Shown in pieces: positions 10,298-41,221 of a stretch of DNA of 41,221 bases; position 1 is the stretch's first letter, and the number at the start of each line of letters is the position of its first letter. The stretch lies in the NCBI GenBank assembly GCA_024278935.1, contig JAJRSF010000003.1:67730-108950 (forward strand). The letters are read 5' to 3'. The stretch is from Candidatus Zixiibacteriota bacterium. GTDB taxonomy: Bacteria > Zixibacteria > MSB-5A5 > GN15 > FEB-12. The notes below the pieces were generated by a model, which saw only the letters and a program-made list of their open reading frames with translations, was not told where the DNA came from and made no database searches. A program made the position numbers and the translations under genes.

Positions 10298-11095
10298 ATG
10301 CGAATCAAACGAATAATTATAATTATCATCTTGATTTTATTTTCTATTAACTTCGCATCATCACAAGCAGAAACAAACGACAAAGATATTGCTACTGTTT
10401 TCAAAGAACAAGACGCGCGAGGCACAATGGTTCTTGTATCGCTCGATAATAAAACCAGATACATTCATAATTATAAAAGAGCTAATACGCGTCTCTCTCC
10501 CGCATCAACTTTTAAAATTGTTAATTCTATCATAGCATTAGAAGAAGCTGTTATACAAGACCAATATGAAATTATAAAATGGGATGGAACCAATCGATTG
10601 TACGATGCATGGAACAAAGACCAAAATATGAAAACTGCTTTTAAGTATTCCTGTGTTTGGTTTTATCAGAAACTCGCTAAAAAAATCGGCATTAAAACAT
10701 ATCTTAGTTATTTTGAACGATTCAACTATGGCAACAAACTAATCGGCGATAATGTCACCCAATTTTGGTTAGGTGAAGAATTAGAAATTTCAGCAATGGA
10801 ACAGATTGAGTTTCTTAAAAATATACATAAACAAAAATTTGATATATCAAAAAGAACCTATAAGATACTTCAAGAAATCATGCTTGTTGATAGTACAGAC
10901 AATTTCAAACTTTTCGCAAAGACAGGTGCCATCACTAGAAACGGGATAGGTCATGGCTGGTATGTTGGGTATGTGACGACAAAAGAGACGACATGGTTCT
11001 TTGCGACGAATATTTTAATAGATGGTATGAAAGATTTAGCAAAACGAATAGAAATCACTCATGCTGTATTAAAGAAAAAAGAAATTCTGAGGTAA
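10298..11095 (+). CDS. Class D (OXA-type) beta-lactamase
   Basis: A 265-residue secreted serine beta-lactamase. An N-terminal signal peptide (about residues 1-23) is followed by every class D motif at close to the standard spacing: S70-T-F-K73 (active serine and carbamylatable lysine), S118-C-V120, Y144-G-N146, a tryptophan in QFWLGEELEIS (W157), and K208-T-G210. It should hydrolyse beta-lactams in the periplasm. No BlaR/MecR-like sensor helices or regulator are nearby. The gene is divergent from its usual surroundings, lying between rsmD and rplS with palindromes upstream and a shared terminator downstream, consistent with acquisition. The substrate range cannot be read from the sequence. 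Confidence 0.92.
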   Translation: MRIKRIIIIIILILFSINFASSQAETNDKDIATVFKEQDARGTMVLVSLDNKTRYIHNYKRANTRLSPASTFKIVNSIIALEEAVIQDQYEIIKWDGTNRLYDAWNKDQNMKTAFKYSCVWFYQKLAKKIGIKTYLSYFERFNYGNKLIGDNVTQFWLGEELEISAMEQIEFLKNIHKQKFDISKRTYKILQEIMLVDSTDNFKLFAKTGAITRNGIGHGWYVGYVTTKETTWFFATNILIDGMKDLAKRIEITHAVLKKKEILR

Positions 11096-15487: not shown

Positions 15488-16024
15488 CTACTCAATTGTG
15501 CTCAAAGATTCGAATATTCTCGTAGACATATTGTAATAGGCGATTATCTCAACGAGACTGACAATATCTCTATCGGATAAGCCTTCCGAGCGTAAATTTG
15601 CGACATCATCGGGCGAAACCACATCTGGCGAACGGGTAATCTTGACCGCATAATCAGCAATCGCTTTCTCGCGTGAGTTCAGACCTGCCTGGGTGTAATC
15701 ATGTACAAATTTTGATGCGAATTTTTCATCTTGCTCCCGACCGAGAGCTTCTTTATGCCACGCTGTTCAGTGGACACATCCGTTGAAGTTAGCGACAATC
15801 AAAGCGGCGATTTCAATCTCTTTGACTGAAAGCCCGGTTTTGTTATCAGCAATTGAATCGTGGAGCCTGTTGATATCGAGTGCTATTTGCGGAGTTGTGC
15901 TTGTCAGCCGTGCAAGGTCGGGGATGACTTTTGTTGTTTTATCCATAACTTCGTCATACATCTTTTTTGCTTCGGTGTTGGTCGTGTCTCGTTTTTCGAT
16001 TTCGACCCATGGTTTCCATGGCAT
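15488..16024 (-). CDS. AhpD-like peroxidase-family protein, predicted selenoprotein (CxxU)
   Basis: The frame from ATG 16022-16024 (AAAGGAGA just upstream) runs into TGA at 15767-15769 and continues in frame for 92 codons to TAG at 15488-15490. That gives 178 residues with the all-helical carboxymuconolactone decarboxylase/AhpD fold seen in peroxidase-related enzymes. TGA falls exactly on the second position of the redox motif: C83-V-H-U86-T-A-W-H90 matches the family's C-x-x-C-x-x-x-H. A stem-loop at 15733-15748 with a GGUC apical loop follows at SECIS distance. Selenocysteine is therefore much likelier than a broken gene. Expected role is thiol- or selenol-based reduction of peroxides or disulfides in the cytoplasm. 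The Sec machinery is not in this window. Confidence 0.85.
15733..15748 (-). promoter_or_regulatory. Predicted bacterial SECIS element in the AhpD-like gene
   Basis: On the minus strand GCTCTC and GGGAGC pair (one G-U) around loop GGUC. The stem starts 18 nt after the TGA, so the loop starts 24 nt after it, within the range known for bacterial SECIS elements. A GGU apex is also found in the E. coli fdhF element. The assignment is predicted, not demonstrated. Confidence 0.7.
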
Positions 16025-18343: not shown

Positions 18344-19308
18344 TTACACTAATTTAGATTTTAGAATATCATGTAGGTGTACAACGCCGCAGAGTTTGCC
18401 GGTTTTGTCAACTGTTGGGAGTTGGGAAATTGAGAACTGTTCCATCATCTGCAAGGCTCTATCAAGCAAAGCATCACGGTCAACAGCTTTTGGATTTTGA
18501 ATCATAACATCGGATGCTTTCAGATTATAAAAAGAACCCGACTGTTCGGCTATCCGACGCAAGTCACCATCGGTAAAGATTCCTAGCAACTTTCCAGAGT
18601 TATCAACTGTTACAACACATCCCAACCGTTTTGAAGTCATTTGCAAAATCATATCATTCATCGATGCGTCTGTTTTGACAATCGGAAGTTCGGCACCATC
18701 ATGATGTACATCGGAAACTTTTGTAAGCAGTCTATTGCCTAAAGAACCACCGGGGTGAAACGTCGCAAAATCTTCGGCGGAAAAATTTCGTGCTTGCAGA
18801 AGTGCCACTGCTAGAGCATCGCCCATGACAAGTGCAGCAGTCGATGATGATGTTGGTACTAAATTGTTGGGGCAGGCTTCCCGTTCGACCGAACAATCAA
18901 GCGGCATATCGGCACGTTTGTAAAGTTCCGAATCGACCGTTCCACAGAGAACTATGATAGGCACCGCAAGCCGACGAGCGGCAGAGATCAGTTATTCCAT
19001 CTCGCCAAGCCGACCGGATTTTGATATAAGCATAAGAATATCGTCGGTTCGCATCAGACCTAAATCACCATGCATTGCTTCGGCAGGGTGTAAGAAAAAT
19101 GACGAGATCCCTGTTGAGTTAAAAGTCGCGACAATTTTTTTGCCGATAAGCCCCGACTTCCCCATCCCGGCAACAATCACTCGACCTTTGCAGTCTAAGA
19201 TTGATTCTACGGCACGGTCGAAGTTTTCGTCAAGGTTCTCAGCCATCGCTTTGACAGCTTCGGCTTCGGTGAGGATAACCTCGCGGGCATTTTTTTATAA
19301 TCGCTCAT
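18344..19308 (-). pseudogene. kdsD: Arabinose-5-phosphate isomerase (KdsD/KpsF family), disrupted twice
   Basis: KdsD converts ribulose-5-phosphate to arabinose-5-phosphate, the Kdo precursor. The SIS domain (GRVIVAGMGKSGLIGKKI, FFLHPAEAMHGDLGLM, MGDALAVALL) and the two CBS domains (SDVHHDGAELPIV ..., VMIQNPKAVDRDALL ... VVHLHDIL) are all present, but in pieces. An in-frame TAA at 18992-18994 separates GRLGEME from LISAARRLAVPII. At the start, ATG 19306-19308 overlaps the kdsC stop (ATGA), yet its frame joins the SIS frame only if the A7 run at 19290-19296 gains one A. Either the gene is decayed, or the A-run slips, or the assembly is wrong. It is the third gene of kdsA-kdsC-kdsD. Confidence 0.85.
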
Positions 19309-30515: not shown

Positions 30516-32459
30516 TTAAGATTCATCTGTTTTCTTCGATTCTTTTGCTGCTTCTTCATCTTGTAATTCTTTATACCATCTTGGATGATGATGCTTGATT
30601 TCATCTTCAGGCATATCACCATTGAGCCATGTAAATGACATTGGGTATTGGTCAGGATGGAATATGACAAAGAAGAAATGGAATACACCAATAGCAAGCA
30701 TAGCAAGCCACGCTTCATAATGATGAATAGTTTCAGAAACCGAGACTATCCATGGTGGGAAATAAGTTGTGTAAAATGTTGGGAACCATAAAACAGTACC
30801 AGTAAATACCATTACAAAAGTACCCCACGCCAATGCCCAGTATTCGGCTTTCATTGTGTAATCAAAATAACCGAACTGTGCTTTCTCTTTACTCAAGCCG
30901 AGATAGTACATCATATTTTGTTTAATCTCTTTAAGATCAGACCAAGCAGGAAGCATTTTGATAATCTTGGTGCGTCCATCTTTGGTTGCCATAATATAGA
31001 CAACATGATGGATTGAAATATAAATCATCGCTACCGCTGATATTCGATGTATCAGACCGCGGGCAGATTCAAACATTCCGACAAATTTTAAACTTTCCAC
31101 CCACCATGCATTTGGAAATTTCAGAGCAAAGCCTGTTAAGACCAGCACAATGAATGTCACCGTTATAATTATATGCTGGAAGACAAGGTTGCCATTTAGT
31201 CGTTTGACTGACTTTTGCGTTTTTAAATATCTGCTACGCATTATCATATATCTAATAAATATTATCGCATTATGAGCTAGCATACCGCCAATCACAACGA
31301 TGATTAGAAGGATATAAATAACTTTGATAAGATAATTTAGCTGACCATACTCACCAGACTCAGCCATGTGCGTATAACTTGCCGCAAAAGCATCGTTGGC
31401 ATCGGGGTGACAGGTTTGACAAGTTTGGGTACGGTTATCAAGATGTAAAGAAGATGCCGGGTTTGTTGATGGTAAGATATCATGAGCATTATGACATGAA
31501 GCACATGTTGCCGCTTTAATAGAACCACCCTTAATAGCGAGACCGTGATAAGTATCTTGATAAGTAGTAAACCTATCTTTCCCTAATCCATACTTGGCAG
31601 TTAATCGATCATCATTGTGACATTTTCCACAGACATAATCAGAAAGCTGGGCATAGTTCACAGGTGAATCGACATCATGGATTCCTAAGATTTCATGTTC
31701 TCCATGACAATCAGCACAGTTCGGAGAATCCAAAATTCCTGCCGCTAATGCTTTGCCATGGATACCTCTGCTATATTTCACATATGTTGCCTGGTGACAT
31801 TTGGCACAGGTTTTTGGCACATTCATTTTGTTTACTTTTGAATCTGAATGAGAGACTCGTTTTAAATCATGCACTCCATGACAGTCATTACAAGTTGCCG
31901 CAGTTTCGACTCCCTCTGCTAACCGTTTGGCGTGGATGCCTTTCATATAACGACCCGATGTTGAAGATAGTTTTATATCTGGATCGGTTGAAAGCATTTT
32001 CTTTTCATGGCAGTTGGCACATGTAAAAGAAAGGTTATGTTTTGATGTTGTGGCATCGGCATCATCGGATGATCGTATGGTATGTTTACCATGACAAGAT
32101 GCACAGTTTGGAGTGAGTTCGTTATGCTGAACTTTTCCATGAGCAGATGCGTCGAATACTTCGGCTACATCGTCATGACATCCGGCACAATCGACAAGTT
32201 CCAACACCTCTTCATGAGGATAATCATCGACACCTTCTAAATCAACGTGACAGTCAATACACATCATATCGGCATGCACTGAAACATCAGTTGAGTCAGA
32301 AGTTACATACATAAGAACTTCTTCACCATGAAAATTGATTCCTGTAAGTTCAGAATCATCATGGCAAGAAAGACATGTTTCGTTATCATCCTCAGCAAAA
32401 GCTGTTACACTAAAGCAAAGAAAGATGCTGAAAAGAAAAATAGTTTTAAGTTTATTCAT
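30516..32459 (-). CDS. Undecahaem cytochrome c fused to membrane cytochrome b (CbcL-like)
   Basis: Starting at the Met at 32459 (signal peptide ending TAFA) gives 647 residues. The first ~370 hold eleven CxxCH haem sites (CLSCH, CIDCH, CAGCH, CASCH, CANCH, CNDCH, CAKCH, CADCH, CGKCH, CASCH, CQTCH). The C-terminal part is a cytochrome b of the b561/FdnI type with about five helices and His pairs such as FQHIIITV, HRISAVAMIYISIHHVVYI, and a late IHHYEAWLAMLAIGVFHFFF, plus the conserved PDQYPMSFTWLNG. Fusions like this, such as CbcL of Geobacter, take electrons from menaquinol and pass them to periplasmic haems. It is the last cytochrome of the island. Confidence 0.9.
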   Translation of the reverse strand: MNKLKTIFLFSIFLCFSVTAFAEDDNETCLSCHDDSELTGINFHGEEVLMYVTSDSTDVSVHADMMCIDCHVDLEGVDDYPHEEVLELVDCAGCHDDVAEVFDASAHGKVQHNELTPNCASCHGKHTIRSSDDADATTSKHNLSFTCANCHEKKMLSTDPDIKLSSTSGRYMKGIHAKRLAEGVETAATCNDCHGVHDLKRVSHSDSKVNKMNVPKTCAKCHQATYVKYSRGIHGKALAAGILDSPNCADCHGEHEILGIHDVDSPVNYAQLSDYVCGKCHNDDRLTAKYGLGKDRFTTYQDTYHGLAIKGGSIKAATCASCHNAHDILPSTNPASSLHLDNRTQTCQTCHPDANDAFAASYTHMAESGEYGQLNYLIKVIYILLIIVVIGGMLAHNAIIFIRYMIMRSRYLKTQKSVKRLNGNLVFQHIIITVTFIVLVLTGFALKFPNAWWVESLKFVGMFESARGLIHRISAVAMIYISIHHVVYIMATKDGRTKIIKMLPAWSDLKEIKQNMMYYLGLSKEKAQFGYFDYTMKAEYWALAWGTFVMVFTGTVLWFPTFYTTYFPPWIVSVSETIHHYEAWLAMLAIGVFHFFFVIFHPDQYPMSFTWLNGDMPEDEIKHHHPRWYKELQDEEAAKESKKTDES

Positions 32460-32489
32460 TTTAAAATCCCGGTTAAAATGATACATATA

Positions 32490-34058
32490 TTAATGACATT
32501 CGGCACAAACCGAGTCGTTTATTTTCGTTTCACCATGTTGTTCAGTTGAGTGACAACTTGAGCAAGCAAGTTCCATATCTTCAGTGTGTAGTTCATGCGG
32601 CAACTCGCCATCATCGTAGTCAACTACTTCAGGGAAGAATGCATTGCCATGACAAAATGTCTGGCAAGATTTATCAGGCGAAAAGGCATCGCCACGAGAA
32701 GCAGGTTGATATGATGTTTTAATCTTCTTCATGGCATTTTCAAATTTATCAGCAGCATGGTTTAAGATATGCATAGAGTATTTAATGTTGTGAACCATGT
32801 GTCCTTCATGAACAAGATTATAGTTTTCTTTCATATTTGTATATTCAGACTGCGCTAAGCGTCGTTGTTTTTTAGAACCGCCAATAGATTTAAAGTCAGC
32901 ATATCCTTTTTTCATATATGCTTTATAATCTTTCATAGCAAGAAGTGAACCAGATTTCCAGTTGTCAAACATCAGGTCATAGTTTGAACCATGACAAGTG
33001 ACACAAGAATTACGTGACGCTTCTTTTTTATCCTGATGTGCCATGATGTCGCCTTCAGGAGTGATATGAGTATGACAACCAGTACAAGAAACTTGTGCCT
33101 GGAACATTGCCGATGGCATATCATGTTTATCTGAACTTCCGATTCCCATGTAAAGCTGTTTCGGTTGGTTATGTTGTCTAATATGACAGTTCTCGCATTG
33201 AATATCTAAGGCACCAACCATTTCAAAGTTACCATGCTCAATAGGGTCGTGACATTTATGGCAATCAATGCCTGTGTTTGTTACATGAATATCATGCAGT
33301 TCACCATTAGAAAATTCATTTTGTAACCGTTCGACATGACAGGAGTAACATTTTCCTTTTGGAACCGATGCGTTGCCTTCAACAATTTTTGTATGACATT
33401 GTTTACACTCAACTTCAAGCTCAAGGTACGGCTCATGGTTAAACATAAAGCCACCATGTTCAACTTCGTTTTTTGGATTACCATGACAGGAATAACAACC
33501 TGTAATAGCTTCTCCTTGCCCGGCATCTTTAAAATGGCAGACAAAGCAGGTTTGGTCATTGACAGTCATATGGCTCAGAGTTTCTTCTTCGTTCTGTGCC
33601 ATTTGATTATGACAAGATGTACAATGTAGTTTACCGGAACGGAGAACTTTGTCAAAATGTGTACTATGTTTGAAGAAAATATTTTCTTTATATTTTAAGC
33701 CGTCATCAAGAGTTTCAAAATCATGACATCCATCGGCTAAACAGTTTTCATCGAGTACTCTTGTTTGTGGTCTGGTGTTAAATGTCTCGGTTGCATATTT
33801 GAGAGTCGATAGTAAAAGATCTCCGCCATCATAATCATGGCAAGCGACACAGTCAACATCGGCATGAGTCGATGCTTGCCAGTGGCGAACATAAGGATCC
33901 ATATAGTGACAGGAATCACAGAATTCTGAATTTGTTGTTTCATACGAAGCAAATGCATATAAACCAATGAAGATGAGAACAAAAAGTCCGAGAACTGCAA
34001 TCAATCCTTTTACATTTTGCTTTAAAAGGACGCCAACATCTTTAAATAATTTTGTCAT
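32490..34058 (-). CDS. Fifteen-haem NapC/NirT-like membrane-anchored cytochrome c
   Basis: A 522-residue protein with a single N-terminal membrane helix (about 19-40) and a NapC-like start (FCDSCHYMDPYVRHWQASTHADVDCVACH), then a long periplasmic haem array. I count thirteen CxxCH sites plus two unusual ones: C-LADG-CH (CX4CH) and C-QTF-CH (CX3CH). The last five residues are themselves a haem motif (CAECH). A region without haem sites (about 385-465), Lys- and Met-rich, separates the last three motifs. It probably draws from quinol or the adjacent cytochrome b and forwards electrons. Its start overlaps the previous stop by one base (TGATG). Confidence 0.9.
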   Translation of the reverse strand: MTKLFKDVGVLLKQNVKGLIAVLGLFVLIFIGLYAFASYETTNSEFCDSCHYMDPYVRHWQASTHADVDCVACHDYDGGDLLLSTLKYATETFNTRPQTRVLDENCLADGCHDFETLDDGLKYKENIFFKHSTHFDKVLRSGKLHCTSCHNQMAQNEEETLSHMTVNDQTCFVCHFKDAGQGEAITGCYSCHGNPKNEVEHGGFMFNHEPYLELEVECKQCHTKIVEGNASVPKGKCYSCHVERLQNEFSNGELHDIHVTNTGIDCHKCHDPIEHGNFEMVGALDIQCENCHIRQHNQPKQLYMGIGSSDKHDMPSAMFQAQVSCTGCHTHITPEGDIMAHQDKKEASRNSCVTCHGSNYDLMFDNWKSGSLLAMKDYKAYMKKGYADFKSIGGSKKQRRLAQSEYTNMKENYNLVHEGHMVHNIKYSMHILNHAADKFENAMKKIKTSYQPASRGDAFSPDKSCQTFCHGNAFFPEVVDYDDGELPHELHTEDMELACSSCHSTEQHGETKINDSVCAECH

Positions 34059-35002
34059 CAGTTGTTTCCTTTGCTTTCACTCTTTGATTGATCAATAATA
34101 TCTTGTGATTCTTTTTTTATAATTGCTTCATATTCAAGTGGGTGATGATGTTTCATTTCGGATTCAGTTAACTGTCCATGCCACCATGTCCAACTCATTG
34201 GGAAAACTTCAGGGTTAAAATGTACATTGTAAAAATGCCATATAACGATAGAGAGCGTAGCAAGCAGTCCTTCATCGGAGTGCATTTCTCGTCCTATATC
34301 ATAGAAATATTTTGGGAAAAGTTCTTTGTACCACATGATTGCCCCGGAACCGATCATGATAACCATGCCCCAATAGACAGCCCAGTAATCAAATTTTTCA
34401 ATAAAAGAGAAGCGGTCAAATTTTGGACCTGATTTTGATTTACCGATATAGTAACGCATAGTACCCATAAAATCAGCAGCATCTTTTAAGTTTGGAACCA
34501 TCAGGAAAAAATCTCTGCGACCGACTCTTGAACCCAAGGAGTAGATGACATGCCAAATACCTACGATGATCAGACCAACAGCACCGATACGATGAATGAA
34601 TGTTGAATTGTGCAGTCCACCTAAGAGATCAATCACAATAAATTTTGAAAGACCAAATTCAGGGAATTTTAACGGCATACCTGTTATGATTAAAATTATA
34701 ACCGAGACAAACATAAGCATATGCTGGTATCTGAAATTTTTTCCAAACCGTTCAAAATTTCGTTCGACTTTTTCTTCAGGCAACATTTCACTGAGTGAAT
34801 CGGGGTGCAGTTTTGTGACAGCTTCGTTTAGCAGGCTTGAAGATTCGTACTGTAATCTTTCGGTGACAGTGTCTGTTATTTCTGTAATCTGTTTTTTTGT
34901 AGGGTCAATTTTTACAATATCAACAGCAGATTTTACAATATTATCTGATAAGCCTTTTATAAAGACTTCTCTATTATCTAAATTCTTCTTTTTGTCATTC
35001 AT
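34058..35002 (-). CDS. Cytochrome b561/FdnI-type membrane cytochrome b
   Basis: A 314-residue protein with an N-terminal cytoplasmic part of about 90 residues and four to five membrane helices (FRYQHMLMFVSVIILIITG, FIHRIGAVGLIIVGIWHVIYS, a YWAVYWGMVIMIGSGAIMWY helix and LLATLSIVIWHFYNVHF). His residues in QH, HR, WH and WHFYNVH suit two b-haems. The final PEVFPMSWTWWHGQLTE matches the end of the fused cytochrome b in this island, so they are paralogues. It likely oxidises menaquinol and feeds the neighbouring 9- and 15-haem proteins. Tight spacing with both neighbours shows an operon. Confidence 0.87.
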   Translation of the reverse strand: MNDKKKNLDNREVFIKGLSDNIVKSAVDIVKIDPTKKQITEITDTVTERLQYESSSLLNEAVTKLHPDSLSEMLPEEKVERNFERFGKNFRYQHMLMFVSVIILIITGMPLKFPEFGLSKFIVIDLLGGLHNSTFIHRIGAVGLIIVGIWHVIYSLGSRVGRRDFFLMVPNLKDAADFMGTMRYYIGKSKSGPKFDRFSFIEKFDYWAVYWGMVIMIGSGAIMWYKELFPKYFYDIGREMHSDEGLLATLSIVIWHFYNVHFNPEVFPMSWTWWHGQLTESEMKHHHPLEYEAIIKKESQDIIDQSKSESKGNN

Positions 35003-35008
35003 CTGTTG

Positions 35009-36058
35009 TTACCTTTTTGCTCGGGCGTTTTTTGCTCTTCGGAATAAATCCATAGCGATAAAAGCAAGCAGTCCTAAAAGAACCGACACAGTTAATACTA
35101 AGAAGGCTTTTGAGATATAATAAATGATCCCCGACTCTTCACTTTTTGGATTGATATGAATTTGCTGTCCTGATGAAAACTCAGCAGATGCTCCCGGATG
35201 ACAGCCTTCTTTACCGCAGGTCTTCGGAATATTGTCAGGGTGTACCGATGATTTCGGATCATCTTCCCCGCGAATATCATGATAGTCATGGCATGAGGCA
35301 CAGTTGGCAACTGTTTTACTTCCCATCTGCAGTCCAACCCCATGAAATGAATGTTCAAAAGTTGCTGCTCTGTCAGTTTTGATATTATATTTATTCACCA
35401 CACCCTGGGTGCCATGGCACTCGGTGCATGTTTGAGAAATCCGAGCATCGGAAACTCGTGACTCATCAGAGTTATGCTTTTTAATATTATGTTCACCGTG
35501 ACAATCAGAACAAACCGGTGCATCTTTAATTCCGTCAGCAACCGCCCGTCCATGGGTTGACTCTTTATATACTGCGTAAATATCCATGTGGCAGGTTCCG
35601 CATGTTTTCGGAATGTTCTGCCAATAAAATTTTGATTCAATCGTTTTGTGTGAATATACATCATGGTCGCCATGACAATCCTGACAGACGGGTGCTTTTT
35701 CATTTCCGTTTAATACTGCCATACCATGTACAGAATGTTCATACTGGTCATACATCTTACCATCTGGAGCGCCAACAGGGTTCCCGGTATAATGACAGCG
35801 ACGGCAATTAACTTTTTTTACAACTTTATGTGGAATCTCATTGATATCATTATGACAATCAGTACAATCTTTGTCGTTATGTACCGAGCGTGCGATAATT
35901 GATTCGTCAATATATAAAGGTACTTTTCGTCCTGTTTCTTCAGCACGATGAATCTCTTTTTTACTATGACAAATCTGACATTTTTCTAATGCCTGAATAT
36001 CTGCGGAACTCCCGCAGAGGAGAAATAAAAATATTACTAAAAAGCTAAGTTGTTTCAT
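35009..36058 (-). CDS. Nonahaem cytochrome c with C-terminal membrane anchor
   Basis: A 349-residue protein with a signal peptide (to about residue 24), nine predicted haem sites and one C-terminal membrane helix (about 311-335). The sites are CQICH, CTDCH, CRRCH, CQDCH, CGTCH, CSDCH, CTECH, CASCH and an unusual C-GKEG-CH (CX4CH). Repeated blocks of the form HG(x)AV-GIK-APVCSDCHGEH occur, as in tetrahaem and octahaem cytochromes of the reductase type. It shares this block pattern with the 7-haem and 11-haem proteins, suggesting duplication. It should carry electrons on the periplasmic face. It starts four bases after the 7-haem gene. Confidence 0.9.
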   Translation of the reverse strand: MKQLSFLVIFLFLLCGSSADIQALEKCQICHSKKEIHRAEETGRKVPLYIDESIIARSVHNDKDCTDCHNDINEIPHKVVKKVNCRRCHYTGNPVGAPDGKMYDQYEHSVHGMAVLNGNEKAPVCQDCHGDHDVYSHKTIESKFYWQNIPKTCGTCHMDIYAVYKESTHGRAVADGIKDAPVCSDCHGEHNIKKHNSDESRVSDARISQTCTECHGTQGVVNKYNIKTDRAATFEHSFHGVGLQMGSKTVANCASCHDYHDIRGEDDPKSSVHPDNIPKTCGKEGCHPGASAEFSSGQQIHINPKSEESGIIYYISKAFLVLTVSVLLGLLAFIAMDLFRRAKNARAKR

Positions 36059-36062
36059 TTAC

Positions 36063-36863
36063 TTATTCCACCCTTTTAACGCGACGTTTATATTCTAAGA
36101 TGCGATACAAAATAAAACCTATAATTATTATTGAAATAAAGAAATAATAGAACTTACGGACAAAAAACTTTCCACCGGAAGTTTCTTCAGATGCGGAAGT
36201 ATGAATTGTACCATGGGCAAAGTCAGGAGGTAGATCAACGTGGCAGGCACCGCAGGTTGCTTCTATATTATCATTATGTATGAGTGACTTTGGGTTGCTT
36301 TGTGGGAAAATATTATGTACACCGTGACAGGAAGCACAGTTTGCTACCGATGCTTCACCGAGTTCATTGCCGATACCATGAAACGATTCTTTAAAAGTGG
36401 CAATCCGATCAGCTTTCAGACCAAATTTTCCGACTACTCTTTCTGATGTATGACATTCGGAACATGTTTTTGGAACATTGGTTGAATAGACTTTTGATTC
36501 TGGATTAAAATGCGAAATTATATTATGACCACCATGACAATCAGTACATCCCGGTGATTCTTTTATACCATTTGCTAATGCGACACCATGGATTGATTCT
36601 TTATAAATGTTTAAGACTTCTTCATGACAAGAACCGCAATCGACATCTGTTCGAAATGCATGTTGTTCGGCAGGGTCAATATCGTGACAATCTATACAGT
36701 ATAATTTTTTATGAACTGACATATTGATGAGCGATGTATCTATATGTTGTGTAGTTTCAGATGATTGGTCACCATGAGCCAGATGGCACTTTAAACATGC
36801 AGAATCATCAGCTATTACTGATTTTGCTAGAAATAAAAAAATAACTAAAATGAGTGATTTCAT
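36063..36863 (-). CDS. Heptahaem cytochrome c with C-terminal membrane anchor
   Basis: A 266-residue protein with a signal peptide (residues 1-18), seven CxxCH sites (CLKCH, CIDCH, CGSCH, CTDCH, CSECH, CASCH, CGACH) and one C-terminal helix (about 233-253) followed by a basic tail. Block patterns (IHGVALANGIKESPGCTDCHGGHNI) match the 9- and 11-haem proteins. Seven-haem anchored proteins are partners of cytochrome b in Geobacter Cbc-type quinol oxidoreductases, which fits this operon order (7-haem, 9-haem, cytochrome b, 15-haem). GGAG lies before the ATG. It is the first gene of this operon. Confidence 0.9.
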   Translation of the reverse strand: MKSLILVIFLFLAKSVIADDSACLKCHLAHGDQSSETTQHIDTSLINMSVHKKLYCIDCHDIDPAEQHAFRTDVDCGSCHEEVLNIYKESIHGVALANGIKESPGCTDCHGGHNIISHFNPESKVYSTNVPKTCSECHTSERVVGKFGLKADRIATFKESFHGIGNELGEASVANCASCHGVHNIFPQSNPKSLIHNDNIEATCGACHVDLPPDFAHGTIHTSASEETSGGKFFVRKFYYFFISIIIIGFILYRILEYKRRVKRVE

Positions 36864-37040: not shown

Positions 37041-38558
37041 TTAATAACCGGAATCTGAGTTATGGCATTCAGTACAATTCATCTCTGCCCAGGCACCATC
37101 GACATCTTCGGGATGAGTAAAATCAATACCGGTGATATCATGTTCCAGTTCTTCGACAATCTCCGAAGGTCCTTGTGCTACAATAAGATGGCAGGTTGAA
37201 CATTCGTTTGAAAGTACTTTTCCATACTGATTTTCCATAACGCCATCATGGCATCTAAAACAGCCGTCATTAACAAAATGTGATAAATTATTTTGACGGT
37301 CTCGGTAATCAGTTTTCATTTCAGGGAAGAAATTGTTTTCATATATTTGAGTAAGCTCTTTAATAGCTTGTATAATAAGTGGGCGTTTTTCAGTCGCTAT
37401 TTCGGGATACTCTTCTTCATAGTATGCTACTAATCTAGCCCGTATTGAATCGATTGCTTCCGGTTTGGTCTCATATTCAGCATTGAGAAGTTCCAGACCG
37501 ATTTCACGAATATATTTCAGTTCAGGTGAAATACGTCTTGTTGAAATCGCCAGATTGATAAGTTTTGCCGGCGGGTTGAATTTGTGCGATGGTCTGTTAT
37601 GACAATCCATACAGTCAAAGCGTCGTACCTCTAACAATGGGTCAGAGAAATCAGGAGCATCTTCATCGGGATCAGTATAAATAAGTGTATCGTTTGTTGC
37701 ATTATCAATAATTCTGACCCAGTTGATTTCTTCACGTTTAAAATCATTGGCGACATAGTCAACAGTTGAGCCAAGCATGTGCCAATGGATTCCTTCGAGT
37801 TTACCGGTACGGGGGTTACCACCACCGATTTTGACGAGCATTTTAATTGTCCAAGGAGTGTTGTCTTCATCTGTTTTATAATACGTGTGGGTTACCATTT
37901 TTTCGCCGTAGAACTGTTGTGGCCAGTGACATCCTTCGCAAGTTTCCTGGGCAGGACGGAGATTATGTACCGGCGTTTGAATAGGACGTGCAAAAGTGTT
38001 GGCTGCCATAGCATATAGTTGTCGCATACCATCGATTTTTGCTTTCACATAAAAAGAAGCACCCGGGCCGATATGACATTCCACACAAGGAACGCGGGCA
38101 TGGGCTGAGTTTTGATATGTGATAAACTGTGGCGACATTACTTCGTGACATGTTTCACCACAAAAATTGACCGAGTCGGTTGCTTCGTATGCTTTTGTAC
38201 CGGAATAAATTACTAAAATAATTAAGACACCTAAGACAGATAAGAATATACCGATGTTTCGTAAGTAATGAGGGTCAGTTGTGTCGAATGTCAAGTTGAA
38301 TGAAAATTTTTCACCTTTTGCTTTTGCTTTTCTTACTTGAATCCAAACAGAAAGCATGAATATAGCAAAGCCCATAACAGCAAACATAGGTGCGATTACA
38401 AATGTTACCAATGAACTGTACGGGTTGTCAGATTCTCCCGCGGTAAGATCAATAAGAAGTAAAACGAAGAATAATAATAATCCTGCTACAAATAAAGCAG
38501 CCCCAATACCGCCGAGCGGATTTCTTAGTAATGACCGTTTTCTCATTTCAGCAACCAT
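37041..38558 (-). CDS. Seven-haem NapC/NirT-like cytochrome c with three membrane helices
   Basis: I place the start at Met 38558 (MVAEMRKRS), because AAGGA lies eight bases upstream; an earlier Met at 38576 spans that site. The 505-residue protein has three N-terminal helices (about 15-37, 47-68, 99-119). Then come haem sites C-GET-CH (CX3CH), CVECH, CEGCH, CMDCH, CFRCH, CSTCH and CTECH. The beginning (FCGETCHEVMSPQFITYQNSAHARVPCVECHIGPG) is NapC-like, and the larger form with extra helices is found near metal-reduction and outer-membrane conduits. It likely passes electrons from quinol to the MtrA-like protein. The C-terminus ends with a haem site seven residues from the end. Confidence 0.9.
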   Translation of the reverse strand: MVAEMRKRSLLRNPLGGIGAALFVAGLLLFFVLLLIDLTAGESDNPYSSLVTFVIAPMFAVMGFAIFMLSVWIQVRKAKAKGEKFSFNLTFDTTDPHYLRNIGIFLSVLGVLIILVIYSGTKAYEATDSVNFCGETCHEVMSPQFITYQNSAHARVPCVECHIGPGASFYVKAKIDGMRQLYAMAANTFARPIQTPVHNLRPAQETCEGCHWPQQFYGEKMVTHTYYKTDEDNTPWTIKMLVKIGGGNPRTGKLEGIHWHMLGSTVDYVANDFKREEINWVRIIDNATNDTLIYTDPDEDAPDFSDPLLEVRRFDCMDCHNRPSHKFNPPAKLINLAISTRRISPELKYIREIGLELLNAEYETKPEAIDSIRARLVAYYEEEYPEIATEKRPLIIQAIKELTQIYENNFFPEMKTDYRDRQNNLSHFVNDGCFRCHDGVMENQYGKVLSNECSTCHLIVAQGPSEIVEELEHDITGIDFTHPEDVDGAWAEMNCTECHNSDSGY

Positions 38559-38656
38559 AATATAATCCTTAATCAATTGTTTATAACATAATATTCATTA
38601 ACATCTTAATTTTGGATTAGTATAGTAGTAAAACAATACAAAACAAGTACTTTTTT

Positions 38657-38773: not shown

Positions 38774-40984
38774 TTAAAAATTAATCTTAAATCCTGACCG
38801 TATCATCAAAAATGTACCCGATTCATTTCCAAAGACATACCCTTGATCGTCAGTTAAATCTGCGTATTCACCATCTAGAGTAAATGTCATAGTTGGTGAG
38901 ATTTTATAACTCAGACCGCCTTCAAGTTTCAGGAGAGTGTAGTCTAAGTCTGAATAGCTGTTCATGTTGGTGAAATCATAATCTTGGTTTTCTACTAAAT
39001 CGCCACCTGTAAGGATTTCGATTTCATGTAAGTCCGGCATAAGAACTTCATCTAAAGATGATTCCGCTTTATTCCAAGTTACCATTCCGTGTAGATTTAA
39101 TTTTGCTGATGCGGTATAGTTCATTGAAGCAAATAGATTGTGAACTTTGCTTTTGTAATCTGTCATTGCATAGATAGAACCATAATGTCGAGTGTCGCCA
39201 CCGGCGACGTATATATGACCACCTCAACCATCAAACAGAGCTACCGCAATAGGGAGTCGTGATTTGTCATAGTTATATGAATACCCTGTCTGCAGTGAGA
39301 ATCTTGCTGATGGTGTATGCATAATTGAAATTGATGGAATAAACGATGAGTGTTCGACATCTAAAGAATCGAGATCATCATTTTTATCCATTTTTCCTTT
39401 TAATCCCATTGTTAGAGAAAGTTTTGAGCCAGGGTTATAACTCATATTCCAATCACATGACATCACTTGCGTTGGAGAAGTTGTTATATCCTGATATCTC
39501 AAATCTTCCCGTTGGAAATAGAAGACCCAAATAGAAGCACCTGTTAAAGGATCTAAGACAAATTCACCTGACGATTCAAACAACCCTTTGCCGGATACAA
39601 ATGGGTCAGATATTTTTTCAAATCTGATTTTTAATGATGAACGATAGTAAAGAGATTTGCGATAATTAAACTTCGCTTGCAAATAGAGTTTCTTTGTAGA
39701 AGTACCATCACCAACAACGGGATAATCATCACGATTGACCATATCATAGCCAAGAAGACCAGACACAGTTAGTTTTTTATTCATTCGTTTAATCAATTCA
39801 GCAGACAAATTTGTATTTGTTCTGTTTAATGCTGAATAACGAGTAAAGTCAAAATCAACATAGTTACTGTCGGAAAGGTCTTCTCTAAATGTAGGAAGAT
39901 CTATATAGATAGAATCAGAGTCTAGTTTTGATATAGCAACTTTGGCAATCAGTTTTGTGTTTGGATCTATAAATGTTGCATAGTTAAAAGCTGATGAATA
40001 CGAATTATTTTTTAATTCAGTATATTTATTTTCAGCAGATGCATACCCAATTGAACCTGCGAGATAGCCATTACCAAGATTTCTTTTAAACTTAACCTTG
40101 TGAGACATCTTTTCAGTTTTTGGAGAAACTGAAAACTCTGCTTCGACATCTTCATAAATAAGACGAGGTCCAAATTCACCAGCTGCAGTTCCTGCTGCTT
40201 TTATTGGATGCATCGCATTATCATAATATGCTAAAGATGCTTGTTCTTTAGGATCATAGAGTCTGTACCCAAATTGATAACCTACATCAAAGCTACCAAC
40301 TTCAGCGTCAACACCTAATTCAAGTTGATGTTGGGTGTTATTAACTTCACCTTCCATTGATGTTAAGTGACAAGCAAAACAATGACTTGATGCTATTTTC
40401 TGCTCGGTACCTGTTTTTAAAATCATGCGATGTGTAGCATTAAAACGCACATTATTTTTCTCAGATAACAAGACTGAAAATTGCGTTAATAGTTCCTGAC
40501 GGTATGTATTATAGTCAGCACCAGGGTCTTGAATGTCATGAGTCAACATTTTACCACCTAGCCAACTATTTGGTGAAGCTCCAACTGTATCAGCAGCCGG
40601 TAAATATTCTTGGGCACTCATAACATCAAGAAGGTCTTGTCCTTCTTGTTTTAATAAAGAACGGTACTGCATAGAAAATTTTAATTTATCTGAAACTTTT
40701 GCATTCAATTTAGCATACGCATTTTTACTATCATAGTAATGACTGACAAAACGCATAATAGAATTCTGACCTACAGAAAGATAGTTGAGGGAAAATTCAG
40801 GTAAAGTTTCATTGTCGCCTAGATCATATTCACCAACTTTTTTTGTGTAGTCAGTAAAATCAGTATAATGACCACCGATCCAAAGTGAATAACTTTCGAA
40901 CTTGACTCCTTCATCAGCAAACGAAAAAGAACTCGCCAGAAGAAGTACAACTATTACAAAAACAAACTTTAGCAATGATTTCAT
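38774..40984 (-). CDS. MtrB-like outer-membrane barrel with haem motif and predicted selenocysteine
   Basis: A signal peptide (residues 1-23, ending SFSFA) begins a frame that meets TGA at 39224-39226 after 586 codons. The same frame continues for 149 codons to TAA at 38774-38776 and ends with beta-strand repeats and a terminal phenylalanine (FLMIRSGFKINF), as outer-membrane barrels do. The full 736 residues fit the MtrB/PioB porin family, which encloses a periplasmic multihaem cytochrome and carries electrons across the outer membrane. The preceding gene is MtrA-like, ten bases upstream. Two oddities: a haem-binding CFACH (C202-H206) inside the barrel protein, and TGA at position 587 (DG-U-GG) with a SECIS-like hairpin behind it. 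Without read-through the barrel loses its last fifth. Confidence 0.85.
39194..39208 (-). promoter_or_regulatory. Predicted bacterial SECIS element in the MtrB-like gene
   Basis: On the minus strand GTCGCC pairs perfectly with GGCGAC around apical loop GGU. It begins 15 nt after the TGA, so the loop begins 21 nt after it, inside the known bacterial range. Loop start GGU is the same as in the AhpD-like gene and at the apex of the E. coli fdhF element. Confidence 0.65.
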
Positions 40985-40993
40985 ATGTATCTC

Positions 40994-41221
40994 CTATCTG
41001 GTTAAGGCGTTGCCGCCGGTTGAGGTTGTTTGTGATGGCATATCAGAACCATGGATTTCAGTATGACATTGTGTACACTTCGTAGTAAAGCCACGTTCCA
41101 TACTTTCTAAAGTTGATTCACCTGCCCGTTCAGGAGCATTTGGAGGTGTAAAGGCACCATCAACTGCAACAACTGTTGCGTGGAAATGCATAGGGTGACA
41201 ACTTAAACATAAAGCTGGTTC
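40994..41221 (-). CDS. C-terminal part of MtrA/DmsE-like decahaem cytochrome c (runs off window)
   Basis: The frame is open to the end of the window, so only the last 75 residues are seen. They hold two haem sites, CLSCH (followed by PMHFHA) and CTQCH in KCTQCHTEIHGSDMPSQT, the ending typical of DmsE/MtrA-type periplasmic decahaem cytochromes. Such proteins insert into an MtrB-type barrel. The stop at 40994 lies ten bases before the barrel gene, with AGGAG in the gap, so the two are cotranscribed and probably form one porin-cytochrome complex. The total number of haems cannot be known from this window. Confidence 0.88.
   Translation of the reverse strand, partial: EPALCLSCHPMHFHATVVAVDGAFTPPNAPERAGESTLESMERGFTTKCTQCHTEIHGSDMPSQTTSTGGNALTR

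Follow-up and report, generated by a model that had tools for sequence, protein, structure and literature searches.

The locus analysed here raises the question of whether a TGA that interrupts a large outer-membrane β-barrel gene is read as an amino acid and, if so, what this would mean for the encoded protein. In the window (the whole stretch of 41,221 nucleotides under analysis), the barrel frame runs on the minus strand from position 40984 to 38774 and comprises 736 codons, with a TGA at 39224-39226 (minus strand, codon 587) as its sole interruption. The 149 codons that follow encode a β-rich sequence with a terminal phenylalanine. An earlier reading of the same DNA, made from the sequence alone (hereafter the sequence-only reading), had placed the break and the 149 codons leading to this phenylalanine at exactly these positions and had proposed that the UGA is read as selenocysteine (Sec), giving a 736-residue barrel; the proposal is supported by the presence of the TGA in 60 of 60 homologues, by a covarying downstream hairpin and by the Sec machinery of the genome. 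Overall, the gene (38774-40984, minus strand) very probably encodes a Sec-containing barrel of the GSU2204 family, with a recoded UGA; this barrel probably forms the porin component of a conduit of the OmcK/OmcL type.

The assignment to the GSU2204 (OmcL-type) family is based on the NCBIfam profile NF041027, which the barrel matched over all 580 profile positions with 526 bits (cut-off 350). The match covers residues 11-586, and the end of the profile at residue 586 is immediately followed by the UGA at 587. All 29 members of our barrel alignment match the same profile, and four full-length members from outside the phylum also score over its cut-off. Pfam holds no family named for this barrel, and a sequence search returned no related solved structure. 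Within the 29 aligned sequences, H201-C202-x-x-C205-H206 is invariant, a motif that includes the CFACH stretch of the window protein (residues 202-206; 40367-40381, minus strand). The designation of the barrel as MtrB-like in the sequence-only reading holds for its architecture and operon but not for the MtrB/PioB profile TIGR03509 (cut-off 240 bits), to which the whole barrel gave no match and its C-terminal part only 12.8 bits.

Searching 146 related genomes, we found the barrel gene in 60 of them, and the near-complete matches carried exactly one TGA each, the exception being a decayed copy in genome G009. This copy (L092; G009:C2:10238-11746) consists of fragments with extra stops, an added TAG and frame changes, and the TGA and the hairpin can still be read in it. 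With a profile search across 386 genomes, the barrel was also found in four genomes from other phyla, likewise carrying a TGA, and nearly every match spanning the Sec position had one TGA at the site. Comparison of homologues at this site had been suggested as a check in the sequence-only reading: read directly in 60 sequences, five of them from other phyla, the codon was TGA in every case and never one for Cys, Trp, Arg or Gly. Full-length homologues with the same TGA are 42-78% identical, and the residues flanking Sec are conserved, usually as FDG-U-[GA]GH within the phylum and, for example, as GGUGGH in distant members. Three out-of-phylum loci (L094, L096 and L097) have a Cys some 15 residues past Sec (S[AL]CDK) that is missing from in-phylum members. 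A remote Sec-less relative (L098; G374:C1:526500-530500), which scores 102 bits against NF041027 and is below the cut-off, has FDGGSGT in the Sec region and CTTNCH replacing CXXCH; it sits downstream of a frame with nine CXXCH motifs, in a genome that has selB. No barrel relatives were found in plasmids or viral contigs in our searches. The missing Cys counterparts in the barrel family are unusual for a selenoprotein and, since they are absent, suggest that selenium chemistry in the barrel may not be easily replaced by sulfur.

Downstream of the UGA lies a bSECIS-type hairpin, GUCGCC-GGU-GGCGAC (39194-39208, minus strand), which starts 15 nt past the TGA and forms a perfect stem of 6 bp with a GGU loop, exactly as the sequence-only reading had described it. 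Folding of the region after the TGA, a further check suggested there, likewise bears it out: the hairpin covaries among relatives and agrees with all four published bSECIS constraints (apical loop of 3-9 nt with G in its first two positions, stem of 4-16 bp, 16-37 nt from the UGA, and MFE of at most -7.5 kcal/mol; PMC13188914), with its GGU loop, 6 bp, 21 nt between UGA and loop, and -11.3 kcal/mol. Taken alone, a hairpin in a single sequence is weak evidence for Sec. Perfect stems of at least 6 bp occur in the same zone for 51 of the window's 1852 TGA triplets (2.8%), a stem as good appeared there in 404 of 20000 synonymous-codon draws (2.0%), and the fold stability of the barrel hairpin is at the level of shuffled sequence (z 0.12). 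The hairpin is significant because it is conserved among homologues, along with the TGA. We analyzed its covariation, with a seven-pair stem, in 44 distinct sequences that were aligned by their loops and picked for a clear loop register, so that the figures lean somewhat towards structure; 89% of cells were paired versus 69% in shuffles, two-sided (compensatory) changes were present in six of the seven stem pairs, and the covariation score was 0.541 versus 0.155 in shuffles, with none of 500 shuffles as high. Slid versions of the stem scored at most 0.140. The stem codes for different amino acids in different members (AGGDA, DTVGV, DTVSV, VTGGD), so its pairing is retained despite changes in the protein. 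Between the UGA and the 3-nt loop core, the distance ranges from 17 to 28 nt among relatives and is 24 nt in most.

The Sec machinery, which the sequence-only reading had proposed to look for, was found in full in the genome (3.4 Mb in 68 contigs), each component over its cut-off: tRNA-Sec (64.5 bits), selB (314 bits), selA (505 bits, directly before selB) and selD (372 bits), the last being itself a selenoprotein with a CAGU Sec motif. As assembled, selA contains one in-frame TGA at residue 331 (G000:C64:9720-11099; L047, L105). The relatives read have sense codons at this residue, nearly all for Leu (in genome G003, from the same genus, TTA), and we rejected it as a further Sec codon; because it is not conserved in relatives, it is probably an assembly error or a nonsense polymorphism. 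For Sec to be made by exactly the genome assembled here, this TGA would have to be an error, or the population would have to contain intact copies. A kdsD-like gene in the window is split by an in-frame TAA (about 18992-18994, minus strand), and both stops look like isolated substitutions in the assembly, unlike the conserved TGA of the barrel. Six or seven MAGs carrying the barrel gene had no selB over the cut-off, probably through incompleteness. Co-occurrence of selB and the barrel gene is uninformative, as nearly the whole phylum has selB.

A second UGA in the window, also pointed out in the sequence-only reading, is indeed present at 15767-15769 (minus strand), with a GGUC-loop hairpin downstream. 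It belongs to a second selenoprotein frame (15488-16024, minus strand), an independent AhpD-like, peroxidase-related gene with a CVHU motif and 118.7 bits against TIGR01926. AhpD-like CxxU selenoproteins are known. Elsewhere in the window, a frame at 10298-11095 (plus strand) resembles a class D beta-lactamase/penicillin-binding domain (STFK and KTG motifs recognized by eye).

Other readings of the barrel TGA have to be weighed against this evidence. A sequencing error or a nonsense mutation in a normally uninterrupted gene would find company in this assembly, where conserved genes contain at least two further isolated stops in frame (the selA TGA at a Leu codon and the kdsD TAA). However, unlike the selA stop, the barrel TGA recurs in 60 of 60 homologues with a covarying hairpin, and this conservation refutes a point change, which retains practically no probability. 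Equally implausible is a genome-wide reassignment of TGA, for example to Trp or Gly: it would explain in-frame TGA codons in several genes, but TGA terminates 7 of the 40 window genes counted and is thus used as a normal stop, so that the code is not reassigned; moreover, tRNA-Sec and selB are present, and Trp or Gly codons never occupy the site in homologues. Marginally less far-fetched, and still very unlikely, is a barrel made in two pieces, with termination at the UGA and separate synthesis of the last five strands from a downstream ATG at 39166, which does open a frame of 130 codons. We rejected it on the grounds that residues preceding this ATG are conserved (G602 and H600 among them), that the bSECIS-like hairpin falls within the stretch before it, and that the aligned homologues do not show the frame break. 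Taken together, these sequence comparisons show that members of this barrel family read the UGA as an amino acid, with a bSECIS-type hairpin and in Sec-decoding organisms; the inserted amino acid is almost certainly Sec.

The position of Sec in the barrel was derived from a strand assignment. An AlphaFold model from five sequences was of low confidence (pLDDT 35) and served only for the strand pattern; three long strands were split by hand and one was moved using the alignment, resulting in 26 predicted strands, which is also the strand number of MtrB. Amphipathic alternation in the strand segments is about twice that in the rest of the protein (1.16 vs 0.62). Each of the twelve even-numbered connections spans 2-4 residues and is free of deletions, as expected of periplasmic turns, and most other connections are long, many of them with indels. 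According to this predicted topology, Sec587 would reside between strands 21 and 22, in an extracellular loop formed by residues 577-609, and HCxxCH in the extracellular loop that precedes strand 8, while a stop at the UGA would lose strands 22-26.

The barrel gene is flanked by cytochrome genes. Upstream, the contig end cuts a GSU2203/OmcK-family decaheme cytochrome gene, of which the C-terminal 75 codons remain (40994-41221, minus strand; 81 bits against NF041028, profile positions 244-317). The full decaheme gene of a relative (L010) scores 329 bits against this profile, over the cut-off, and a nearly full gene from another phylum (L093) is likewise over the GSU2203 cut-off. Among the in-phylum loci, 30 extend for at least 700 bases upstream of the barrel, three of them being second copies of records already included, and in every one of the 30 a multiheme gene lies 6-57 nt upstream; this gene has ten CXXCH motifs in 28 of the loci and eight or nine in the two cut by contig ends. 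Downstream, a NapC/NirT-type multiheme cytochrome with a membrane anchor (37041-38576, minus strand; PF03264, 34.8 bits, over the gathering score) appears to be associated with the barrel, and a run of five genes for multiheme cytochromes and cytochrome b561-type proteins (30516-36863, minus strand) probably supplies inner-membrane and periplasmic electron partners. Growth on hematite and magnetite raises the expression of both GSU2203 (OmcK) and GSU2204 in Geobacter (PMC4070692), and a porin-cytochrome conduit composed of OmcK and OmcL has been described for HotSeep-1 and Geobacter (PMC10553843). Because the latter study cites the hematite/magnetite induction, we infer that its OmcL porin is GSU2204; its main text makes no mention of selenocysteine.

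Based on this operon and the literature, the barrel and the decaheme cytochrome likely form an electron conduit. An unlikely alternative, though one of some weight, is that Sec is inserted into a specialised porin or an outer-membrane selenium/thiol redox enzyme whose only tie to the cytochrome is the shared operon. The lack of a match to the MtrB/PioB profile would suit such a protein, as would the link of another Geobacter porin, ExtI, to selenite and tellurite reduction (PMC5877670). The consistent pairing with a DmsE/MtrA-type decaheme, the run of multiheme genes downstream and the predicted, MtrB-like strand number argue instead for the conduit.

For the Sec-containing conduit, we propose a model in which SelB and Sec-tRNA would recode UGA 587, with the downstream hairpin serving as the bSECIS, as the comparative evidence suggests. 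Read-through would complete the barrel, and would be needed because the UGA precedes the last five of ~26 strands and the C-terminal Phe signal; a polypeptide ending at the UGA could presumably not close as a barrel. The barrel and the decaheme encoded upstream would then pass electrons through the outer membrane to an acceptor or partner outside the cell. Since the predicted topology places Sec587 and HCxxCH in extracellular loops, a surface residue at the outer mouth is the most likely role for Sec; our guess, a tentative one to which we would give rather less than even weight, is that it may act at this outer face as a redox or metal/heme-ligand residue. That Sec587 and HCxxCH meet at the outer mouth as a single redox site, such as a c-type heme ligated by a selenolate, seems decidedly improbable; it may be relevant to this possibility that the Sec-less relative L098 is likewise without a canonical CXXCH.

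Standard gene calling truncates the barrel ahead of its last five predicted strands and, as selenium is also omitted from the main text of PMC10553843, the conduit is easily mis-annotated. The conduit would also probably fail in any expression host that lacks Sec decoding. If Sec proves essential, selenium supply would directly limit one route of extracellular respiration.

With respect to known systems, the barrel family and its selenium are already catalogued and are not new. The sequence-only reading knew of no selenoprotein in the porin-cytochrome family, a claim which does not stand: a 2026 review of prokaryotic selenoproteins lists the GSU2204 family, with the gloss MtrB/PioB family outer membrane beta-barrel protein, as well as the multiheme cytochrome ExtKL, which contains selenocysteine (PMC13188914). 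The main text of the work cited there for the GSU2204 family (PMC2398784) does not describe the family under the terms searched. New in the present analysis are the predicted 26-strand topology, with Sec587 and HCxxCH in extracellular loops, and the finding that termination at the UGA would cost the last five strands. Compared with NF041027, the barrel (526 bits) shares the CXXCH, a Sec exactly at the profile end and the decaheme gene upstream; it comes from another lineage, and we found no defining difference. It resembles the OmcKL conduit (GSU2203-GSU2204; PMC10553843, PMC4070692) in having an OmcK-type decaheme gene adjoining the porin gene. With MtrB/PioB (TIGR03509) of the MtrCAB conduits it has in common a large barrel, here with ~26 predicted strands, paired with a DmsE/MtrA-type decaheme, but differs by its Sec and its HCxxCH. 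ExtKL (NF040886, ext clusters) likewise represents a selenoprotein from a porin-cytochrome gene cluster of Geobacter; there, however, Sec is located in the cytochrome, whereas in the present system it is located in the barrel.
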